From IMG/VR virus record IMGVR_UViG_3300045911_000167, positions 1 through 35,363 of that record: a stretch of DNA of 35,363 bases; one strand, given 5' to 3'. Each line of letters opens with the position of its first letter. Positions within the stretch are counted from its first letter, which is position 1. The notes below the pieces were generated by a model, which was not told where the DNA came from, did not search any database, and saw only the letters and a program-made list of their open reading frames with translations. Origin of the DNA: a virus. The translations under genes were made by a program, and so were the position numbers. Positions 1,079-18,361 of this stretch are shown in pieces.

Positions 1079-1465
1079 ATGCGATTGCTGGTGATTTTGA
1101 TCTTCGCCCTCGTGGCGGGGCCTTTGGTCGCGCAGGATCGCGTGGCGTTCCTCATGGGATCGCACCATGTTGGAGCTGGCGAAAACCAATTTGAAGAGGT
1201 CAATCCCGGCCTGTTCCTGACATGGGACAACTGGTCGGTCGGGGCGTACCGCAACAGCTATGGCGGCCTCAGCCTCGCGCTAACCCATGAATGGGCGCTC
1301 ACCGATCACGTCGCGGTATTCGCCGGTGTCGCCACCTATGACGGTCTGATGCCCATCGCGGGCCTGCAGTTCACAGTCGGTCCCGTCTTCGTTCAGGTCA
1401 TTCCCTCGGACGGCCGGGCGACGGACGCAATCATCTCTTTTGGTCTCATCGTCGCGCAGCAGTAG
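1079..1465 (+). CDS. Exported small beta-barrel-like outer-membrane protein
   Basis: This 128-residue protein starts with a clear signal peptide (MRLLVILIFALVAGPLVAQ, cleavage after the AQ region). The mature part alternates polar and hydrophobic residues, as in outer-membrane beta-strands. A stretch reading NPGLFLTW...VGAYRNSYGG resembles, from memory, a family of small predicted outer-membrane proteins with an NPGl-(x)n-GvYrNSyg signature. The ATG lies 3 nt after the tail gene stop, with no strong ribosome binding site, so translation is probably coupled. A phage-encoded outer-membrane protein next to the receptor-binding gene could alter the cell surface (superinfection exclusion) or act at lysis; both are inference. 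No catalytic residues were recognised. Confidence 0.65.
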   Translation: MRLLVILIFALVAGPLVAQDRVAFLMGSHHVGAGENQFEEVNPGLFLTWDNWSVGAYRNSYGGLSLALTHEWALTDHVAVFAGVATYDGLMPIAGLQFTVGPVFVQVIPSDGRATDAIISFGLIVAQQ

Positions 1466-9546: not shown

Positions 9547-9918
9547 TCATTGTGGCTTGGCTCGCGCGGCGGTGTGGGATGAACTTGAATTTTCTCTTCG
9601 ATCCCACTCATACGCTGCGCCTGGCAAGGCATCGAAAAGACCCTGCTGAACGTCCGCCGGTAGCTGAGCGAAATCCCCGTGCAGGATGAAGTTGAAGTCG
9701 ATCCGATGGGCTCGGTACAGATACCGCATGACCTCCCGTGAAGGGAACGAGCGTCCGGTTTCCATGTTTGCATAGGTGGTCTTCTTGACCCCGGCAGCCT
9801 GGGCGAACTCCTGTTGCATCATGCCGGTCACCAGCCTTGCGGCGTGGAGCCTGATCGAGCAGGCCTTGAGGCTCATGTCTGCCTGAAGTGCGAGGCGGGT
9901 TTTTTCATCAATATTCAT
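9547..9918 (-). CDS. XRE-family repressor (CI-like, short form)
   Basis: The 123-residue protein from ATG 9918 (MNIDEKTRLALQADMSLKAC) contains a canonical helix-turn-helix at about 26-66: LHAARLVTGMMQQEFAQAAG, then VKKTTYANMETGRSFPSREV, with the Q-F-A-x-x-A-G turn and Y-x-x-x-E-x-G-R-S recognition helix. The rest (YLYRAHRIDFNFILHG) is a short dimerisation-type tail. There is no LexA/CI-type protease domain, so induction would not be by RecA-stimulated self-cleavage of a C-terminal domain. The gene diverges from the Cro-like gene, and four operator-like sites flank it. Confidence 0.85.
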   Translation of the reverse strand: MNIDEKTRLALQADMSLKACSIRLHAARLVTGMMQQEFAQAAGVKKTTYANMETGRSFPSREVMRYLYRAHRIDFNFILHGDFAQLPADVQQGLFDALPGAAYEWDRRENSSSSHTAARAKPQ

Positions 9919-9924
9919 GACCTT

Positions 9925-9952
9925 ACCATAGCCAAGGTCCATAATTTGTGAA
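9925..9952 (-). promoter_or_regulatory. Predicted repressor promoter, with operator site C over its -35
   Basis: On the minus strand TTCACA (9952-9947) and TATGGT (9930-9925) are 16 bp apart. The predicted start of transcription falls at or next to the repressor ATG (9918), so the message may be leaderless. Operator-like site C (TCCATAATTTGTGAA, 9938-9952) covers the -35 and part of the spacer, which would allow autoregulation. Confidence 0.45.
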
Positions 9953-9991
9953 TTTCTGAGTGATGGACCTTGTCGATCCATGAAAAATGGA
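9938..9991. promoter_or_regulatory. Right operator pair (repressor sites C and D)
   Basis: Site C is TCCATAATTTGTGAA (9938-9952). Site D is TCCATGAAAAATGGA (9977-9991), a perfect TCCAT/ATGGA palindrome. An additional 9-bp inverted repeat, AAGGTCCAT (9934-9942) and ATGGACCTT (9963-9971), overlaps site C. These sites lie between the divergent repressor and Cro-like genes. Confidence 0.6.
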
Positions 9992-9998
9992 TTACAGC
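9970..9998 (+). promoter_or_regulatory. Predicted rightward early promoter
   Basis: TTGTCG (9970-9975) and TACAGC (9993-9998) are 17 bp apart, and operator site D fills the spacer exactly as site A does in the leftward promoter. The -10 is weak by sequence; the mirrored architecture is the main support. The Cro-like ATG follows at 10007. Confidence 0.5.
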
Positions 9999-10006
9999 AA
10001 GGCATC

Positions 10007-10270
10007 ATGATCACTGCATCCGACATCTGTGACGCGTTGGGTCGCCGCAACATGGCGCAGAGGCTTGGCGTCAGTAAGACCGCCATCAGCAACGCTGCCG
10101 TCGACGGTACGTTTCCGGCGCGATGGTACCTGGTGCTCTCGACGATGTGCGACGAGAGGGGCGTTCCTTGTCCCAAGGAGTTGTTTTCGTTCTCCGAAGA
10201 CAAGGTTTCGAACAATCCCGCGCACAGCGCCGATCATCCCACCACGCCGCTTGCGGAGGATGCCGCATGA
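10007..10270 (+). CDS. Cro-like HTH protein (87 aa)
   Basis: It starts MITASDICDALGRRNMAQRL, with a helix-turn-helix in the first 45 residues (NMAQRLGVSKTAISNAAVDG). The start is set by CAAGG five bases upstream. It is the first gene from the rightward early promoter, divergent from the repressor, the position of cro in lambdoid phages. Its C-terminus (SADHPTTPLAEDAA) recurs in the next gene, where the matching 45-bp DNA also spans the following start codon. It overlaps that gene by ATGA. Confidence 0.75.
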   Translation: MITASDICDALGRRNMAQRLGVSKTAISNAAVDGTFPARWYLVLSTMCDERGVPCPKELFSFSEDKVSNNPAHSADHPTTPLAEDAA

Positions 10271-11018: not shown

Positions 11019-11162
11019 TGGTATCCTCTCGCGTTCGGTGTTTCTGATTCGCACCCCGAGGATAACCGAACATGAGCGGGGGGCCGCATGACCGCGACCC
11101 CCCGTCATCCTTTCCTCGCTTCATCGACATTCCCTGCACAGGACCAGGATGGAGCGAAACGC

Positions 11163-11426
11163 ATGAAAAATCCTGCCAATTCGGCAGATCACGCCACGGC
11201 CTCGCGCCGGTGGTTCGCGGCGCTGCTCTGGCGGGCGTTCCCGTCGCGTTCGGAGGGCGATCTCGCGGTGAAGGCGGCGCGCGTGCTCGATGTATCGCCG
11301 CGGCAGGTGCGCAACTGGCTGCGCTGCGAACATGACGCGAGCCTGCGCTACGTGACGGCGGTCATGGCGATTGCCGGGGCCGAGGTCGTCTTCGGACTGG
11401 TGGAGGGGCGCGGATGCGGGCGCTGA
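11163..11426 (+). CDS. Small HTH protein (87 aa)
   Basis: It begins MKNPANSADHATASRRWFAA and carries a helix-turn-helix (LAVKAARVLDVSPRQVRNWL, about 34-53) followed by CEHDASLRYVTAVMAIAG. The ATG is chosen by GGAG about 10 nt upstream; an earlier start at 11088 lacks one. Its opening residues resemble the C-terminus of the Cro-like protein (NPAHSADHPT). Likely a DNA-binding regulator of the early region. Confidence 0.7.
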   Translation: MKNPANSADHATASRRWFAALLWRAFPSRSEGDLAVKAARVLDVSPRQVRNWLRCEHDASLRYVTAVMAIAGAEVVFGLVEGRGCGR

Positions 11427-11542
11427 CCTATATCGCGGCCCGCTGGTACGAGGCTCGCGCCGCGCGGGCGCTGCGGTCCTATCTCGCGCTGACCCGAAAG
11501 GCGGAAAAATTCTTCCGGCGGCTGGACGGGGGGCGCGGATGA
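11414..11542 (+). CDS. Very basic small protein (42 aa)
   Basis: It begins MRALTYIAARWYEARAARAL and is Arg/Ala-rich and helical (RSYLALTRKAEKFFRRLDGG). It overlaps both the HTH gene and the next gene (ATGA). Such basic peptides can bind RNA or DNA, but nothing specific is seen. Confidence 0.5.
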   Translation: MRALTYIAARWYEARAARALRSYLALTRKAEKFFRRLDGGRG

Positions 11543-11865
11543 TCCGGCTTGCGGCAGTCCTGGCCCTGATGGCGATGCCCGTGTCGGCGGAGACCTACAC
11601 CTTCGGCGGCGCGTCGATCGAGTGGACGGGCCGCGAGGTCATCTTTCGCAACGGGCTGACCGATGCCCACGATTTCCCCGCCGACTTTCACCGCGACATG
11701 ACGCAGGGCTTCACCGTCCGCGTCGTGATCATGCAGGGGGGCGGTCTCGCGCCCGACATGATGATGGTCATTCCTCCGGCGGGTTACGTCGCCGTGCCGG
11801 AGGTCGTCACCGTCGAAGAGCACGAGCGGGGCGTGATTGTCGTCTTTCGCGAGGGCCTGTCATGA
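11539..11865 (+). CDS. Exported protein of unknown function (108 aa)
   Basis: The start MIRLAAVLALMAMPVSAETY shows a clear signal peptide with cleavage after VSA. The mature ~91 residues are beta-rich (FGGASIEWTGREVIFRN, VIVVFREGLS) with a Met-rich patch (LAPDMMMVIPPAGY). A periplasmic protein in the early region is unusual and suggests action on the host envelope. It is the last gene before the terminator at 11917. Confidence 0.7.
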   Translation: MIRLAAVLALMAMPVSAETYTFGGASIEWTGREVIFRNGLTDAHDFPADFHRDMTQGFTVRVVIMQGGGLAPDMMMVIPPAGYVAVPEVVTVEEHERGVIVVFREGLS

Positions 11866-11916
11866 CCGGCCCGGCAAGGTCTCTCCCTGGATGCTGCAGC
11901 ACTGCCGCAGCCACCT

Positions 11917-11961
11917 CCCCGGCGGATGTCGCGCATGTCGCCGCCGGGGCTTTTTCTTTTT
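11917..11961 (+). terminator. Rho-independent terminator
   Basis: A 9-bp perfect stem, CCCCGGCGG (11917-11925) and CCGCCGGGG (11941-11949), with a 15-nt loop, is followed by CTTTTTCTTTTT. This should stop much of the early rightward transcript after the exported protein, so downstream replication genes need read-through, antitermination or their own promoter. Confidence 0.8.
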
Positions 11962-11964
11962 GTT

Positions 11965-12030
11965 CCGGCTGTCCTCCTCTCCGCAGCCGGTGCCGGCGGT
12001 CGCCGTCATCCTCCTCCCGGCGGCGACCGC
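11965..12030 (+). ncRNA. Candidate CcsR/Cuckoo-type RNA: two hairpins with anti-Shine-Dalgarno loops
   Basis: Directly after the terminator's T-tract lie two perfect hairpins. The first has stem CCGGCTG/CAGCCGG (11965-11971, 11984-11990) and loop TCCTCCTCTCCG. The second has stem GCGGTCGCCG/CGGCGACCGC (11996-12005, 12021-12030) and loop TCATCCTCCTCCCGG. Both loops expose CCUCCU-type sequence, and the second has the full CCUCCUCCC. Two hairpins with this loop motif are the hallmark of the Rhodobacter CcsR and rhizobial Cuckoo RNA families, which base-pair with mRNA leaders. The loop is also complementary to the AGGAGG (12056-12061) of the next gene. A free RNA versus a cis-acting leader cannot be told from sequence. 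Confidence 0.55.
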
Positions 12031-12068
12031 TTCGATCCGATCAATCATCGCCAGCAGGAGGTGCGGTC

Positions 12069-12167
12069 ATGAACAAGCCGATCCAGCGATTGCCTGTCAT
12101 CGCGGCCTTGCCCTTGGCGCACATGACGCTGCGGGCCGTCGCCGACGTGATTGAGGCGCAGGCATGA
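12069..12167 (+). CDS. Small protein (32 aa) behind a strong ribosome binding site
   Basis: It begins MNKPIQRLPVIAALPLAHMT and continues to a short helix ending EAQA. AGGAGG (12056-12061) lies 7 nt upstream, the best ribosome binding site in the area, and is complementary to the CCUCCU loops just before it. The stop overlaps the GcrA-like start (ATGA). It might mainly serve translational coupling of the following genes. No domain. Confidence 0.5.
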   Translation: MNKPIQRLPVIAALPLAHMTLRAVADVIEAQA

Positions 12168-12391
12168 GCGCGTCCGTTCCGCAGCGCAAGGGCTGGCCCG
12201 AGGAGGCGATCCTCGAAGCGCTGGAGATGCGCGATCACGACGGGATGACCTACGGCCAGATCGCCCGGCGCATCGGTCGCACGCGCAACGCGGTGATCGC
12301 CACGCTGCGCCACGTCGATGCGCAGGCCGACAAGCACGATCCAACCGGCTGTCGGAACGGCACGATGCCGCGGGGCTGGTGGCGCAGATGA
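12164..12391 (+). CDS. Small GcrA-like DNA-binding protein (75 aa)
   Basis: It begins MSASVPQRKGWPEEAILEAL and has a helix-turn-helix (MTYGQIARRIGRTRNAVIAT, about 28-47) whose TRNAVI recognition helix matches the signature of GcrA, the alphaproteobacterial cell-cycle regulator that reads methylated GANTC. The rest of GcrA (the sigma70-binding tail) is absent; the protein ends in a basic, Trp-rich tail (PRGWWRR). It could affect host promoters or phage replication timing; the family link rests on a short motif. Overlaps both neighbours. Confidence 0.6.
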   Translation: MSASVPQRKGWPEEAILEALEMRDHDGMTYGQIARRIGRTRNAVIATLRHVDAQADKHDPTGCRNGTMPRGWWRR

Positions 12392-13236
12392 CCTATCGCA
12401 CGATCGACATCGGCGACCGGGAGGTGCGGCCTCGCGGGATCGAAGCCAAGCCCGAGCTGCAATGGCTGCGGATCGCGGACCTCGTGATCGACGAGGATTA
12501 TCAGCGCCCGCTCAAGGCCGCGAGCTGGCGGCAGATCGAGAAGATCGCCGCGGCCTTCACCTGGTCGCATTTCTCGCCGGTGCTGGTCGCGCCGGTGGGC
12601 GAGCGGTTCGCCATCATCGACGGCCAGCACAGGACGCATGCCGCCAAGCTGGTTGGCCTGTCCGAAGTGCCCTGCATGGTCATAGACCTGGACGAGAGCG
12701 CGCAGGCGCGCGCCTTTGCGGCGGTCAACGGCGTGGTGACCGCGGTCAATCCGGGCCATGTCTACAAGGCCGCGCTGCAGGCAGGCGAGCCATGGGCGCT
12801 GGCCGCCAAGGCCGCGGTCGAGAATGCCGGAGCCAGGTTGGTGCCCTATACACCCTCAGGCGGCGACAAGCGACCGGGCGAGGTCTATTGCGTGGCCTAT
12901 ATCCGCCACCAGGTCGAGCTTGGGCGTGCGAACCTTCTGACCCTGTCGCTCTCCGCGATCAATCGGTGCTCGTCAAGTGGAGACCTGTTCGTCTGGCAAT
13001 ATCCCTTCCTGCGCGCGCTGATCACGGTGCTGCAGAAAGTGCCGCGCGCGCAGAAACGTGATCTCGTGGCGTTTCTGGACGCGCATCCTCCGGCCCGGCT
13101 CGATCACGGCGTGCATCTGCTGCGGCTATCGGCCGATGCCGACCCCGACCTGCGCACGAAATCGCACGCGGCGATCTTCGCCGAGGCGCTGCAGGCGCAG
13201 ATGGAGCGCTGGGTGGCGGCAGAGGGCGGCAGATGA
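12388..13236 (+). CDS. ParB-like N-terminal-domain protein (DUF6551-like)
   Basis: The 282-residue protein begins MTYRTIDIGDREVRPRGIEA. Residues ~25-110 fit the ParB/Srx fold: LRIADLVIDEDYQRP, then a helix IEKIAAAFTWSHFSPVLVAP and the IIDGQHR box (~76-82), which in ParB is the CTP/NTP-binding signature region, followed by VPCMVI. The C-terminal ~170 residues are helical and not recognised. No centromere-binding HTH is obvious, so partition is unlikely; such proteins in phages have been annotated as nucleases or regulators. It lies in the early operon before the primase. Confidence 0.75.
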   Translation: MTYRTIDIGDREVRPRGIEAKPELQWLRIADLVIDEDYQRPLKAASWRQIEKIAAAFTWSHFSPVLVAPVGERFAIIDGQHRTHAAKLVGLSEVPCMVIDLDESAQARAFAAVNGVVTAVNPGHVYKAALQAGEPWALAAKAAVENAGARLVPYTPSGGDKRPGEVYCVAYIRHQVELGRANLLTLSLSAINRCSSSGDLFVWQYPFLRALITVLQKVPRAQKRDLVAFLDAHPPARLDHGVHLLRLSADADPDLRTKSHAAIFAEALQAQMERWVAAEGGR

Positions 13237-13841
13237 CGGGTCTTCTCGACGCTCTTGAACGGGTCAGCTTGGCGGCCCCGCCGGTCGCCAGGCAGCGGGG
13301 CATCCTTGCCGCGCTCGATGCTGTCATGCCTCCGCCGAAGCGCGCGGGGGCGTCGATCGCCGAGCCTGCCGAGCCCCGTGACGAGCCGCCGTTGCGGGGT
13401 CCGGCGTTGCGGGCCGCGCTCCTGCGTCTGCGGGATGTGGAGCCCGATCGCGCGCCCTGGCCGGAGGAATGGTGGACGCGGAACGATCCGGCCGATGGCG
13501 TGCGCTGCCAGCGCATGTGGAGCGAGTGTCTGCGGCTGGCGCTCATCGAGGTGTGCGATGCCTATTGCAAGGACCTCGACCTGCGCGAGGCCTGGGACGC
13601 CAAGCCCGCGGCGCTTCGCCGCGGCAGGCGCCCCGATGTGCGGCCGAGCTGGATCGGCTCGCCGGATTTCCATGAGGTCTGCGCGCTGGCCGGTCTTGAT
13701 GGAGAGGCCGTCGCTCAGCGTGCCCGCGCGCAGCTTGTTTCGCGCGAGGGGGCGGCGGCGATGGGGTGGGCCCTGTCCGCGGCGGTCACCGGCGATGGTT
13801 ACAAGGTGAGGCGGTCGTTCGGCGAGGGTGATCATGAGTGA
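13233..13841 (+). CDS. Hypothetical early protein (202 aa)
   Basis: It begins MTGLLDALERVSLAAPPVAR. The first 60 residues are Pro/Ala-rich and probably disordered; the rest has conserved-looking Trp/Cys stretches (APWPEEWWTRND, CQRMWSECLRLALIEVCDAY, RPSWIGSPDFHEVCALAGLD). The C-terminal SPDFHEVCALAGL resembles DNA-binding-type motifs in regulators but is not assigned. It overlaps the ParB-like gene and precedes two small hypothetical genes. Confidence 0.7.
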   Translation: MTGLLDALERVSLAAPPVARQRGILAALDAVMPPPKRAGASIAEPAEPRDEPPLRGPALRAALLRLRDVEPDRAPWPEEWWTRNDPADGVRCQRMWSECLRLALIEVCDAYCKDLDLREAWDAKPAALRRGRRPDVRPSWIGSPDFHEVCALAGLDGEAVAQRARAQLVSREGAAAMGWALSAAVTGDGYKVRRSFGEGDHE

Positions 13842-14163
13842 CCGCAGGCCGCAGCTCCGCCGCGCGATCCTGTCGACATCGGTCGCCTTTGTCGCGCTGC
13901 ATCATGGCAGCCGCGCAAAGGCGATCCTGTTCGAGCGGTTGCGGCAGCTGCTGCACGTGCACGCACAGGAGGCCGCACCTGCCGATCTGACGGAATCCGA
14001 TGACCTCGGCCCCGTGATCGCCGCGGCCTCGCGCCTGTGCGGGCTGTGCGGGGAAAGGGCGGCAACCCTGGGCGATCCGGAGTTCTATCTGCGAACGACC
14101 ATCGGGGGGTACTTCGCCAAACAGTCGGAAGGCCTTGCCGCCAATCTCGGGGTGGCGGCATGA
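13834..14163 (+). CDS. Hypothetical protein (109 aa)
   Basis: ATG 13834 (MSDRRPQLRRAILSTSVAFV) follows GAGGG and lies within the upstream gene's end. It is helical with a basic N-terminus and a CGLCGE pair of cysteines that could be metal-binding but lacks a second pair. Function unknown. The next gene overlaps its stop by ATGA. Confidence 0.65.
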   Translation: MSDRRPQLRRAILSTSVAFVALHHGSRAKAILFERLRQLLHVHAQEAAPADLTESDDLGPVIAAASRLCGLCGERAATLGDPEFYLRTTIGGYFAKQSEGLAANLGVAA

Positions 14164-14522: not shown

Positions 14523-14710
14523 AACACTGGTCGGACGAAACCCGTTGGCAACCCCTGGCCGATGTCGTCGCGCGGATCAAGGCGCGGGCCGAGGCGGTCC
14601 ATCGTGCCGGTGCGGATGATGCGGCCGAGGCGGCACTCGACGAACATGACGATCCGGTCGCCGCCGAGCACCGGCAGCGCATGGCGGAGCGGAGGCGGCG
14701 TGATGCGTGA
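14519..14710 (+). CDS. Hypothetical charged helical protein (63 aa)
   Basis: It begins MKHWSDETRWQPLADVVARI and is a long, highly charged, Ala/Arg/Glu-rich helix ending in RMAERRRRDA. The amphipathic pattern suggests a coiled coil. It overlaps the upstream stop and the primase start. A primase accessory role is possible from position only. Confidence 0.6.
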   Translation: MKHWSDETRWQPLADVVARIKARAEAVHRAGADDAAEAALDEHDDPVAAEHRQRMAERRRRDA

Positions 14711-15836
14711 CGATCCCCTTCTTGCCGAAGCCAAGCTGGTGCCGATCATGGACATCGCGGATCGGCTCGGGCTCTCCGACCTCAAGCGCGCGGGGCGGGA
14801 ATGGGTCGGGCCGTGCCCGGTCTGCGGCGGGCGGGATCGGTTCGGGATCAATCCGGACAAGGGCGCCTGGAACTGCCGCCACTGCGGCGGCGGCGACGGG
14901 ATCGGCCTGATCCGTCATGTCCTGTCCTGCGACTTCAAGGCGGCGCTCGCCTGGCTGATGGGCGAGGCTGGCGTCGATCTCGATCCGGTCGAGGCGGCGC
15001 GGCGCAAGGCCGAGGCTGCGCGGAAGGAGGCTGCGCGTCTGGCCTCCTCCGAGAAGGCCCGCGCCCGTGCCATCGCCCAGGCGCGCGCCATCTGGAATTC
15101 CTGCCGACCCGCCGCCGGGACGGCGGTCGGCCATTACCTGCGCCTGCGCGGACTGCCCGACTGGATCGCGGATGCGCCGCCGGACGCGCTGCGGTTTCAT
15201 CCTGCGCTGCCCTACATGGTCCCCTCCGCGGCTGGCCGGGACTGGATCGAAATCCATCGCGGCCCCGCCATGGTCGCGGGATGTCTCGGCAGCGACGGTC
15301 GGCTGACCGCCGTGCATCGGACCTGGCTCGACCTTACCCGTGCCAAAGGCAAGGCGAAGATCGTCCACAACGGCGAGATCATGCCCGCGAAGAAGATTTG
15401 GGGGTCCAAGAAGGGCACCGCGATCCGCCTGACGCATGTGCGCGGCGATGCGTTCGACACGCTGGTGATGGGCGAGGGGATCGAGACGACACTGACGGCT
15501 CGCGCGGCGGACGCCTATCCGGCGGCGGCCTATTGGGCCGGGGTCGATCTGGGCAACATGTCGGGCCAGCGCATCATCCGCGGCGACGGCGGAAGGTTTG
15601 CCGGAATCCCCGACCTGCACGACAAGGACGCCTTCCTGCCGCCGCCCTGGGTCCGGTGGCTCATCTTCGTGCAGGACGGGGATTCCGAGCCGCGCCTCAC
15701 GCGGGCCAAGCTCCTGGCGGGGCTGCGGCGGGCGAAAGCCATGTCGCGCCGTCTGGAGCGCATCAGCATCGTCCACGCGGGCGAAGGACGCGACCTGAAC
15801 GACCTGATCATGGAGGAGGTGAGCGATGCGGCGTGA
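14703..15836 (+). CDS. DNA primase (zinc finger plus Toprim)
   Basis: The 377-residue protein begins MRDDPLLAEAKLVPIMDIAD. A CHC2-like zinc finger (CPVCGGRDRFGIN then CRHCGGGDGIG, about 38-63) binds the template. A charged linker (Ala/Lys-rich helix, ~95-125) leads to the catalytic part with a Toprim-type core: LVMGEGIETTLTA (~252-264, catalytic Glu) and FVQDGDSEP (~324, metal-binding Asp pair). The layout matches short primases of phages and plasmids that work with a separate helicase, here the SF3 protein at 16484. It would make RNA primers on phage DNA. ATG 14703 overlaps the upstream gene. Confidence 0.87.
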   Translation: MRDDPLLAEAKLVPIMDIADRLGLSDLKRAGREWVGPCPVCGGRDRFGINPDKGAWNCRHCGGGDGIGLIRHVLSCDFKAALAWLMGEAGVDLDPVEAARRKAEAARKEAARLASSEKARARAIAQARAIWNSCRPAAGTAVGHYLRLRGLPDWIADAPPDALRFHPALPYMVPSAAGRDWIEIHRGPAMVAGCLGSDGRLTAVHRTWLDLTRAKGKAKIVHNGEIMPAKKIWGSKKGTAIRLTHVRGDAFDTLVMGEGIETTLTARAADAYPAAAYWAGVDLGNMSGQRIIRGDGGRFAGIPDLHDKDAFLPPPWVRWLIFVQDGDSEPRLTRAKLLAGLRRAKAMSRRLERISIVHAGEGRDLNDLIMEEVSDAA

Positions 15837-16005: not shown

Positions 16006-16487
16006 GCATCATTGCCGCCTGGGAGGCGACGTTCACCCGTCGCTGGCACCGTCATGCCCACCTTGCCGACACGCATGATCCCATTGCCGCCCATCAGGGC
16101 CGGGTCGCGCTGCTGGCGCTGATCCTCTTTCCGCGCGAGCATGCGCTGCACCGCGCGGCGATCATTCACGATATGGGCGAGGCCGCCGTGGGCGATGTGC
16201 CCAATCCGGTCAAGGACCGCAACCCGGACCTCAAGGCCGCGCTGGACCGGATCGAGGCGGAGGCAATGGCCGAGATGCAGTTGCCGCCCGTCTCGATGGA
16301 CGACCGCGACCGCGACATGCTGCGGCTTTGCGACAAGCTCGATGCGATACTCTGGGCGCGGCACCATCGACCCGAGCTGATGGACGACCCCGAATGGAAG
16401 GCCGACGTGCAGAAGGTCCGCGGCCTGATGTGGCGGCTGGGTGTGGCCGACCGCGTGAGCCCCGTTCTGGGATGGGTGCTGCGATGA
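16002..16487 (+). CDS. HD-domain hydrolase (YfbR-like)
   Basis: The 161-residue protein begins MSIIAAWEATFTRRWHRHAH. It has the metal ligands of an HD phosphohydrolase: H in HQGRVALLAL (~29), the HD pair in AAIIHDMGEAAVGDVPNPVK (~55), and the terminal D in LRLCDKLDA (~111). Relatives such as YfbR remove phosphate from deoxynucleoside monophosphates. In a phage it could adjust nucleotide pools or remove inhibitory nucleotides during replication. It sits between primase and helicase genes, overlapping both neighbours. Confidence 0.8.
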   Translation: MSIIAAWEATFTRRWHRHAHLADTHDPIAAHQGRVALLALILFPREHALHRAAIIHDMGEAAVGDVPNPVKDRNPDLKAALDRIEAEAMAEMQLPPVSMDDRDRDMLRLCDKLDAILWARHHRPELMDDPEWKADVQKVRGLMWRLGVADRVSPVLGWVLR

Positions 16488-18361
16488 GCGATCCGCTCGA
16501 TCAGGTCCGCCGTGTGATGGCCGCGCCCGAGGATGTCGACATGGGCGGCGTGCCGTCGGCGGATGACTTCCCCGATGAGGGTGGTGACCCGGGGCCTGAC
16601 ATTGGCGACGGATGGGGGCCCGATGTCGAGCCCCCGGAAGGTCCGCCGAGAGACCCGCCAGAGGGCGTTGATCTTGATCGCCACATCGAGGCGGCGGCCT
16701 TCCCGCTTAATGACATCGGGAACGGCAAGCGCTTCTGCACGTATTTCGGCGAGGACGTCATGTTCGTGCCGCGCGTGGGTTGGTTCGCATGGGACGGCTG
16801 CCGATGGGCCAAGGATTCCGACGAGCTGGTCGTGCGGGGCAAGGCACAGAAGGTCAGCGAGCTGATGCTGCGCGAAATCGAGCACATGGCAGTCGAGCCA
16901 TGGGAAAAGAAGCGCCTGGACGAACTGCCTGCGGCGATCGCAGCGGCAAAGGGTCTGGAGGCGCAAACGCGGACGCCCGAGCAGGATGCCGAGCTGGACA
17001 AGCTGTGGGCCAAGGTCCGTGCGGGCGAGGCTCTCAAGAAAGAGGTCTTGCGCCGAAAGGGGGAATACCGGCGTTTTGCCAAGTCTACAGGCAACACCGG
17101 CAAGATCGACGCCATGAAGACCGAAGCGGCCATCGGCCTGGCGCAACAGGTCGAAGCTCTCGATTCCGACCCGCTGGCGGTCAACACACTGACAGGCACG
17201 CTCAAGTTTTCCGTCAGCGAGCCGACCGGGGAGGGCGATACGCGGGTCGCGTCGTTTGTGCTTCATCGCCATGACAGGGCTGATCGGCTGACCAAATGCA
17301 TGACGGTCGCATATGATCCACATGCGCAGGCGCCGCGTTTCGAGGCGTTCATGCAGCGGATCATGCCGGATGCGGAGATCAGGCGCTTCCTGCAGCGGTC
17401 CTTCGGTCTCGCCATGACGGCCCGGATGGAACAGCGCATCTGGTTCCTTTACGGCCACGGCGCGAACGGCAAGTCCTCCCTGATCGACCTGATGGCCAAA
17501 ATCCTCGGTGACTATTCCGCCACGGCGAAGATCGAAACCCTGACTGGTCAGACAAAGCGTGGCGGAGCCGATGCCACTCCGGACCTGATACCCCTGATGG
17601 GCGCCCGCATGGTGCGCGCGTCGGAGCCAGAACAAGGCGAGCGGTTGAAGGAAGGACTGATCAAGGAAATGACGGGCGGCGAAGCCATGCTGATCCGCGC
17701 GCTACATTCTGACTTCATCGAGGTCAGGCCGGTCTTCAAGCTGTTCATTTCCGGCAACCACAAACCGGAAATCCGGGGTACCGACGACGGCATCTGGCGG
17801 CGCGTGCTCATGGTGCCGTTCAAGGAACAGATTCCGGAGAAGGAGCGCGACATCCACTTCGGCGAGAAGCTCTACAAGGCCGAGGCGGCGGGCATCCTCA
17901 ACTGGATGATCGATGGGCTGATCAGCTATCTCGAAAATGGCCTGCAGGTGCCGAAGGCGGTGGCCGAGGCGACCCAAGCCTATCGCGAGGAGAACGACCC
18001 GATCGGCATCTTCCTCGATGCATGCTGCGAGGTAAGAGGGGACGCCGGCACATTCACCAGATCGAGCGATCTGACCGACGCCTTCAACTTCTACCAGGCC
18101 GAACTTGGCAGCTCGCAATGGACCGGGCGACAGTTTCAGCTGCGCCTGAAGGACAAGGCCGAGCGATGGCGCGATCCACGCACAGGGCTGACCTTCATGG
18201 CCGCCAAGCGGTCCGTCGCTGGATATCAGGGCATCGCACTCACCGATGTCTTCCGACGGCGGATGGATGACGCGGTGGCGGCCGGGAAATGGAAGCGTGG
18301 CGTCGCGACATCAACTGGGAGCGCTGCGAGCGGTGCGGGCGATGATCAGCATGATTTCTGA
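16484..18361 (+). CDS. SF3 helicase (P4/D5-type, phage replication)
   Basis: The 625-residue protein begins MSDPLDQVRRVMAAPEDVDM. A Pro/Gly/Asp-rich linker (~20-65) is followed by a D5_N-like region (~90-300), then the SF3 ATPase core: Walker A GHGANGKSSLID (~324), the acidic/sensor stretch ARMVRASEPEQGERL (~374) and sensor segment FKLFISGNHKPEIRGTDDGIWRR (~418-440). The C-terminal part carries the SF3 tail (YREENDPIGIFLD). It is expected to unwind phage DNA at the origin, loading near the primase. The candidate origin begins right after its stop. The frame is intact and no frameshift is seen. Confidence 0.9.
   Translation: MSDPLDQVRRVMAAPEDVDMGGVPSADDFPDEGGDPGPDIGDGWGPDVEPPEGPPRDPPEGVDLDRHIEAAAFPLNDIGNGKRFCTYFGEDVMFVPRVGWFAWDGCRWAKDSDELVVRGKAQKVSELMLREIEHMAVEPWEKKRLDELPAAIAAAKGLEAQTRTPEQDAELDKLWAKVRAGEALKKEVLRRKGEYRRFAKSTGNTGKIDAMKTEAAIGLAQQVEALDSDPLAVNTLTGTLKFSVSEPTGEGDTRVASFVLHRHDRADRLTKCMTVAYDPHAQAPRFEAFMQRIMPDAEIRRFLQRSFGLAMTARMEQRIWFLYGHGANGKSSLIDLMAKILGDYSATAKIETLTGQTKRGGADATPDLIPLMGARMVRASEPEQGERLKEGLIKEMTGGEAMLIRALHSDFIEVRPVFKLFISGNHKPEIRGTDDGIWRRVLMVPFKEQIPEKERDIHFGEKLYKAEAAGILNWMIDGLISYLENGLQVPKAVAEATQAYREENDPIGIFLDACCEVRGDAGTFTRSSDLTDAFNFYQAELGSSQWTGRQFQLRLKDKAERWRDPRTGLTFMAAKRSVAGYQGIALTDVFRRRMDDAVAAGKWKRGVATSTGSAASGAGDDQHDF

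Follow-up and report, generated by a model that had tools for sequence, protein, structure and literature searches.

We describe a structured RNA element with an anti-Shine-Dalgarno (anti-SD) loop in the leader of a phage replication operon, and the element is not peculiar to one phage but occurs in dozens of related proviruses. Judged from the pattern of substitutions among relatives, its core, hairpin 2, is a selected RNA structure, and in this form the suggestion of a preliminary description that the phage carries an RNA structure with anti-SD loops in its early or replication operon is supported. We observed the structure itself, covariation in its stem, conservation of its loop, a consistent position, orientation in the sense of the transcript, and CcsR-like arrays in the host genomes. 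The interpretation that we rank first, as a tentative one, is a leader-embedded, CcsR-like anti-SD RNA element that acts generically or in trans.

The window, that is the whole stretch of 35,363 nucleotides analysed, is a 35 kb viral contig that probably derives from a temperate phage of Rhodobacter-type bacteria. Its genes include an integrase, a CI-like repressor, two primase/helicase proteins, terminase, portal, capsid and tail genes. The element sits on a rightward operon that diverges from the repressor gene and leads to the primases, a placement analogous to that of lambda tR1, which lies between cro and the replication genes. The features referred to below are as follows.

9547-10215, minus strand: CI-like repressor, divergent from the operon bearing the element
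11917-11963, plus strand: terminator-like hairpin (arms 11917-11925 and 11941-11949) with U-rich tail
11965-11990, plus strand: hairpin 1, 8 bp, loop CCUCCUCUCC at 11973-11982
11995-12031, plus strand: hairpin 2, 13 bp, loop AUCCUCCUCCC at 12008-12018, the conserved core of the element
12056-12061, plus strand: Shine-Dalgarno (SD) sequence AGGAGG, 25 nt 3' of hairpin 2, a possible cis partner of the loops
12069-12167, plus strand: first ORF 3' of the element, 32 aa, N-terminus conserved in the relative L205
12164-12391, plus strand: small HTH protein, GcrA/sigma-region-4-like (weak matches)
12388-13061, plus strand: ParB_N-like protein, just below the Pfam cut-off
14562-15836, plus strand: DNA primase, the query for relatives, conserved part from about 14694
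16328-18361, plus strand: second primase/helicase protein of the replication operon

The ORF upstream of the leader (11371-11865) has no Pfam match. The GcrA-like and ParB_N-like genes head the replication operon, and phage handling of a host cell-cycle regulator is possible. Elsewhere in the window, an ORF adjoining a tail-fibre gene (1079-1465, plus strand) matches PHROG 3600, a PagP-like lipid A acylation/antimicrobial peptide resistance protein. A near-identical contig (L002/L004) aligns with the window at 11021-13866 and from 14669 but not between, which suggests that the gene block just upstream of the primase has been replaced between the two; this contig is invariant over the element and hence uninformative on its conservation.

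Within the leader (11880-12069) the order is terminator-like hairpin, hairpin 1, hairpin 2, SD sequence and start codon, and the start codon at 12069 is probably real because of the N-terminal conservation in L205. CUUUUUCUUUUUG stands directly 3' of the terminator-like hairpin (11917-11949), whose U-rich tail abuts hairpin 1. Two perfect stems in tandem, after a terminator-like hairpin and before the ribosome-binding site of the replication operon, had been proposed earlier; hairpins and position were both recovered, with stem lengths corrected from 7 and 10 to 8 and 13 bp. The double-hairpin fold has an energy of -39.3 kcal/mol (z = -4.8 against dinucleotide shuffles). Of the 17 CCTCCT sites on both strands of the window, only two lie in loops of stems with at least seven perfect pairs, and these are the sites of hairpins 1 and 2. 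A tandem pair of anti-SD hairpins appeared in 0/300 shuffled windows, and the motif pair CCTCCTC-N25..55-CCTCCTCCC, which occurs once in the window, in none of 100 shuffles. In the window leader no promoter was found in the interval that separates hairpin 1 from the terminator, nor any terminator 3' of hairpin 2, so that a discrete small RNA would need processing. In the window the 3' arms of the terminator and of hairpin 2 are complementary at 12/12 positions, and the attenuator reading suggested by this was given no weight.

A nucleotide search of phages and plasmids with the leader returned no homologue of the element. The primase search led to phages RcapNL, Pthi1, Pan4 and Mel-JY03, to 80 viral contigs and to 75 bacterial genome loci, most of them from Rhodobacteraceae; the contigs and the loci overlap in part (some stem from the same strains) and are not fully independent. 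Upstream of the primase, hairpins with a CCUCC-type loop were found in 41 distinct forms, homologous or analogous, in phages and prophages mainly of Rhodobacteraceae; an SD and a start codon follow closely in 35 of them, and most elements lie 15-60 nt before the start codon. When all hairpins of at least 11 bp on the sense strand upstream of the primase were taken regardless of motif, the commonest loop 5-mers in both sets were CCTCC, CTCCC and TCCTC, with CCTCC in loops in 12/185 and 24/257 cases against 0/163 and 0/216 downstream of the primase on the same strand (counts that ignore relatedness). In the leftward operons of L143, L171 and L184 the motif is on the minus strand, and this favours an RNA function because it follows the sense of those transcripts. 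The element is not universal, being absent from the regions read of phages 16-3, RR1-A, AmM-1 and RcRhea. The leftward operon of L143 also has, at about 1464-1510 on the minus strand, a double hairpin (loops CUCUCCUCCC and ACCUCCUCCC) with a T run 3' of its second hairpin; the whole looks like a complete small-RNA gene. In Paracoccus phage Shpa (L010, about 1617) a hairpin with a CCCUCCC loop lies just 5' of the Erf annealing-protein gene.

Comparison of close relatives reveals how hairpin 2 evolves. The leaders of L159 and L168 are nearly alike, and their second hairpins differ by 3/15 pairs changed on both sides (T-A to G-C, C-G to G-C and C-G to A-T) plus one broken pair, around identical loops (ACCUCCUCCC); between L206 and L207 a single pair has changed with compensation, G-C to T-A. 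Between the window and L205 the flanks are about 74% identical, the hairpin-2 stem has been replaced and the loop UCCUCCC kept. Pairs were counted on a homologous set, and no covariance model of our own was built, because the stems share too little sequence; a MAFFT alignment of all hairpins together misaligned the stems and was left out of the counts. In the eleven alignable leaders 88.7% of cells pair, a figure that leans towards the reference structure, itself one of the eleven rows, and 10/20 pairs have changes on both sides. The doubly changed cells, which are the stronger evidence, number 27, where shuffles gave 9.0 +/- 2.2 and slid controls 5-10. G-U pairs are present in these stems. 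The UCCUCCUCCC-type loop thus stays while the stems of hairpin 2 turn over with compensatory changes, and the conservation of loop and stem structure in relatives left the earlier proposal standing. Some hairpin-2 loops drift, to CCCCCUCUCCC in L154, to CUGCUCCUUCC in L151 and to a form with a G in L258, so that some elements may do without strict SD pairing.

The earlier view of a conserved unit of two hairpins, both with CCUCCU loops, did not hold, as only hairpin 2 is conserved. The stem of hairpin 1 is present in many relatives, its anti-SD loop is not conserved in most of them, and the loop is usually only C-rich (ACUACUCCCUG in L205, the nearest distinct relative, and UCCCUCA in L250), with L159 and L163 as exceptions. 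The terminator-like hairpin recurs in L205, L147, L192, L250 and others, and its T run is missing in some relatives. An extra short hairpin with an ACCUCCC loop precedes the terminator-like hairpin in L205 (3130-3155), giving three C-rich hairpins in that leader.

The preliminary description had likened the element to CcsR and cuckoo RNAs, a comparison that survives for the anti-SD loops and for a significant match to the CcsR1 covariance model and fails for membership of the CcsR family, which the gene context denies. At gathering thresholds Rfam gave no match in the window. Below them, the models of CcsR1 (RF02791; 27.8 bits, E 5e-5, threshold 65.3 bits), ar14 (RF02344; 30.4 bits, E 4e-4, threshold 58.8) and 6C RNA (RF01066; 33.5 bits, E 0.007, threshold 47) each align across both hairpins. 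All nine genomes examined of hosts with the phage element carry chromosomal arrays of CcsR1-model matches; since these arrays likewise score only 29-47 bits, the CcsR1 gathering score discriminates poorly here. The arrays at all six loci read contain 9-12 CCTCCTCCC motifs, and a DUF1127-like ORF (YRQT-REL-LT-RDL-DLGI, identified by eye) lies just upstream in five of the six, none being recovered in L344. Host arrays with this ORF match ccaF1-CcsR of Rhodobacter sphaeroides, in which CcaF1 is an RNA-binding DUF1127 protein (PMC8625941, PMC10253847).

Like CcsR1-4, the window element has two stable hairpins within about 80 nt, in tandem and both with CCUCCUCCC-type loops (that of hairpin 1 being CCUCCUCUCC), stems that have diverged around kept loops, and a location inside an mRNA, and its score is just under those of the host copies. 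CcsR1-4 (RF02791) are made from the 3' UTR of ccaF1, in a tandem array with a terminator; the phage element, in contrast, lies in an early leader ahead of replication genes, outside any tandem array, with no DUF1127/ccaF1 gene found next to it, no terminator following hairpin 2 and a hairpin-1 loop that is usually degenerate. CcsR RNAs are induced by stress in an RpoH-dependent manner and matured by RNase E.

Other families are more distant. The ar14/NfeR1/SmelA075 or 'cuckoo RNA' family of rhizobia has ultraconserved CCUCCUCCC anti-SD loops on highly divergent stems, a pattern shared by the phage hairpin 2 alone of the two hairpins and with some drift (PMC10746234, PMC3927594). The described ar14/cuckoo RNAs are sRNAs that are encoded on the chromosome and act in trans, each with three or four anti-SD hairpins and a promoter and terminator of its own; the window has two hairpins and neither signal. 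6C RNAs of Actinobacteria have C-only loops, whereas the phage loops are of the CCUCC type. Betaproteobacteria toxic small RNAs (RF02278), for which toxicity on cloning in E. coli has been reported (PMC4603805) and pairing with ribosome-binding sites has been suggested (PMC7011215), belong to another host class and have no Rfam match in the window. Caulobacter SisA-D (alpha-r8 family), chromosomal trans sRNAs with a 10-mer whose anti-SD signature is common to alphaproteobacterial sRNAs (PMC12559287), resemble the phage element in that signature. AsxR and AgvB, as cited in PMC12559287, are phage-encoded sRNA sponges acting on host post-transcriptional regulation; they antagonise host sRNAs, whereas the loop of the phage element is in the sense of the host sRNA itself.

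Similar double hairpins occur in early leaders of unrelated proviruses. By scanning viral contigs for pairs of TCCTCCTC-type motifs at a spacing of 22-45 nt, with the reversed motif as control, we found at least 103 distinct sites; both motifs lie in hairpin loops in 50/103 of the matches listed against 1/46 for the reversed motif. Of the double hairpins in IMG/VR proviruses, many (in L011 and L012, among others) resemble chromosomal ar14/cuckoo genes located in the flanks of the provirus; these were left out of the tally of phage elements. In one provirus family (L021, L030, L085, L102, L107 and L120) a repressor gene is followed by double anti-SD hairpins; L021, L030 and L107 have two such hairpins after that gene, then an SD and, about 40 nt further, an ORF. 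Just before the hairpins of L030 a TTGACA-17-TATTGT-like promoter can be read by eye, and it looks repressor-controlled. Other leader-type sites lie before a queE gene (L092), near a CII-like gene (L025) and near a single-strand annealing protein gene (L016).

We propose that the element would be a conserved structured RNA that temperate phages of Alphaproteobacteria carry in the leader of their replication (delayed-early) operon. Transcription that starts early in the repressor-controlled region would read through the terminator-like hairpin, and the presumably untranslated leader would fold into one or two hairpins, the second offering its UCCUCCUCCC-type loop for base-pairing with SD sequences in the manner of CcsR/cuckoo loops. 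The leader would probably be cut by RNase E or RNase III, host CcsR precursors being cut by RNase E. Its targets are most likely the SDs of several host and phage mRNAs, and it may overlap with the host CcsR RNAs in targets or protein partners. It is possible, and we suggest it with reserve, that early leaders of alphaproteobacterial temperate phages widely mimic host CcsR/cuckoo anti-SD hairpins, acting in trans on host translation or the CcsR network at the lytic switch.

The main alternative, ranked second and in our view rather unlikely, is a cis translational operator, in which the loop would pair with the downstream SD of the same mRNA as an H-type pseudoknot and keep the first gene of the replication operon silent until the SD is released by ribosomes, a protein or RNA cleavage. 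The proximity of SD and start codon in most forms is consistent with such an operator, as are the sense orientation, the lack of an independent terminator and the feasibility of loop-SD duplexes (about -9 kcal/mol); however, any intergenic element of a compact phage has a start codon close by, a local SD needs less than the full decamer, and the downstream genes differ. Cis-specific coevolution left no sign in two comparisons: the duplex of a loop with its own SD (-9.58) was no better than with SDs of other phages (-9.37 +/- 0.27, P = 0.21), nor did it surpass the duplexes with other SDs at its locus (P = 0.58), and the anti-SD function therefore looks generic, cis pairing with a generic SD being still compatible with both comparisons. 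Doubtful in our judgement is a protein-recruiting or processing signal, third in rank, in which a C-rich loop on a long stem would be bound by a host protein that handles CcsR (CcaF1, RNase E/III or another) and would determine how stable the early mRNA is or how it is cleaved, so that anti-SD pairing would be incidental. It would account for loops that stay C-rich as they drift and for their identity with host CcsR-like loops adjoining a DUF1127-like protein (PMC8625941, PMC10253847), but the focus of loop conservation is a sequence ideal for pairing with GGAGG. A DNA-level signal, namely a single-stranded-DNA hairpin at which the phage primase would recognise a start site of replication, would suit the location upstream of primase genes in this phage group; we consider it very improbable and rejected it on orientation and gene context, given the transcript-sense placement in leftward operons, the occurrence near repressor, CII, annealing-protein or queE genes in proviruses chosen regardless of primase, the G-U pairs and a loop known from CcsR RNAs. 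Although stable hairpins are numerous in GC-rich genomes, functionless chance hairpins are the least credible reading in view of the shuffled windows, the loop 5-mer enrichment upstream of the primase, the stem covariation and the viral-contig scan, so that a chance origin of hairpin 2 as a class is refuted, and only the hairpin-1 loop of the window phage could be partly chance.

In the literature searched we found no description of phage or prophage anti-SD RNAs, and the founding cuckoo and CcsR accounts may mention phage copies. Anti-SD hairpin RNAs of the CcsR/cuckoo type have been described as chromosomal stress sRNAs; here the same loop is found under selection in the early leaders of numerous temperate phages, with CcsR-like arrays in their hosts. 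The element would provide a well-defined and testable instance in which a phage uses or imitates a translational regulator of its host, and a compact system for studying how a generic anti-SD loop gains specificity.
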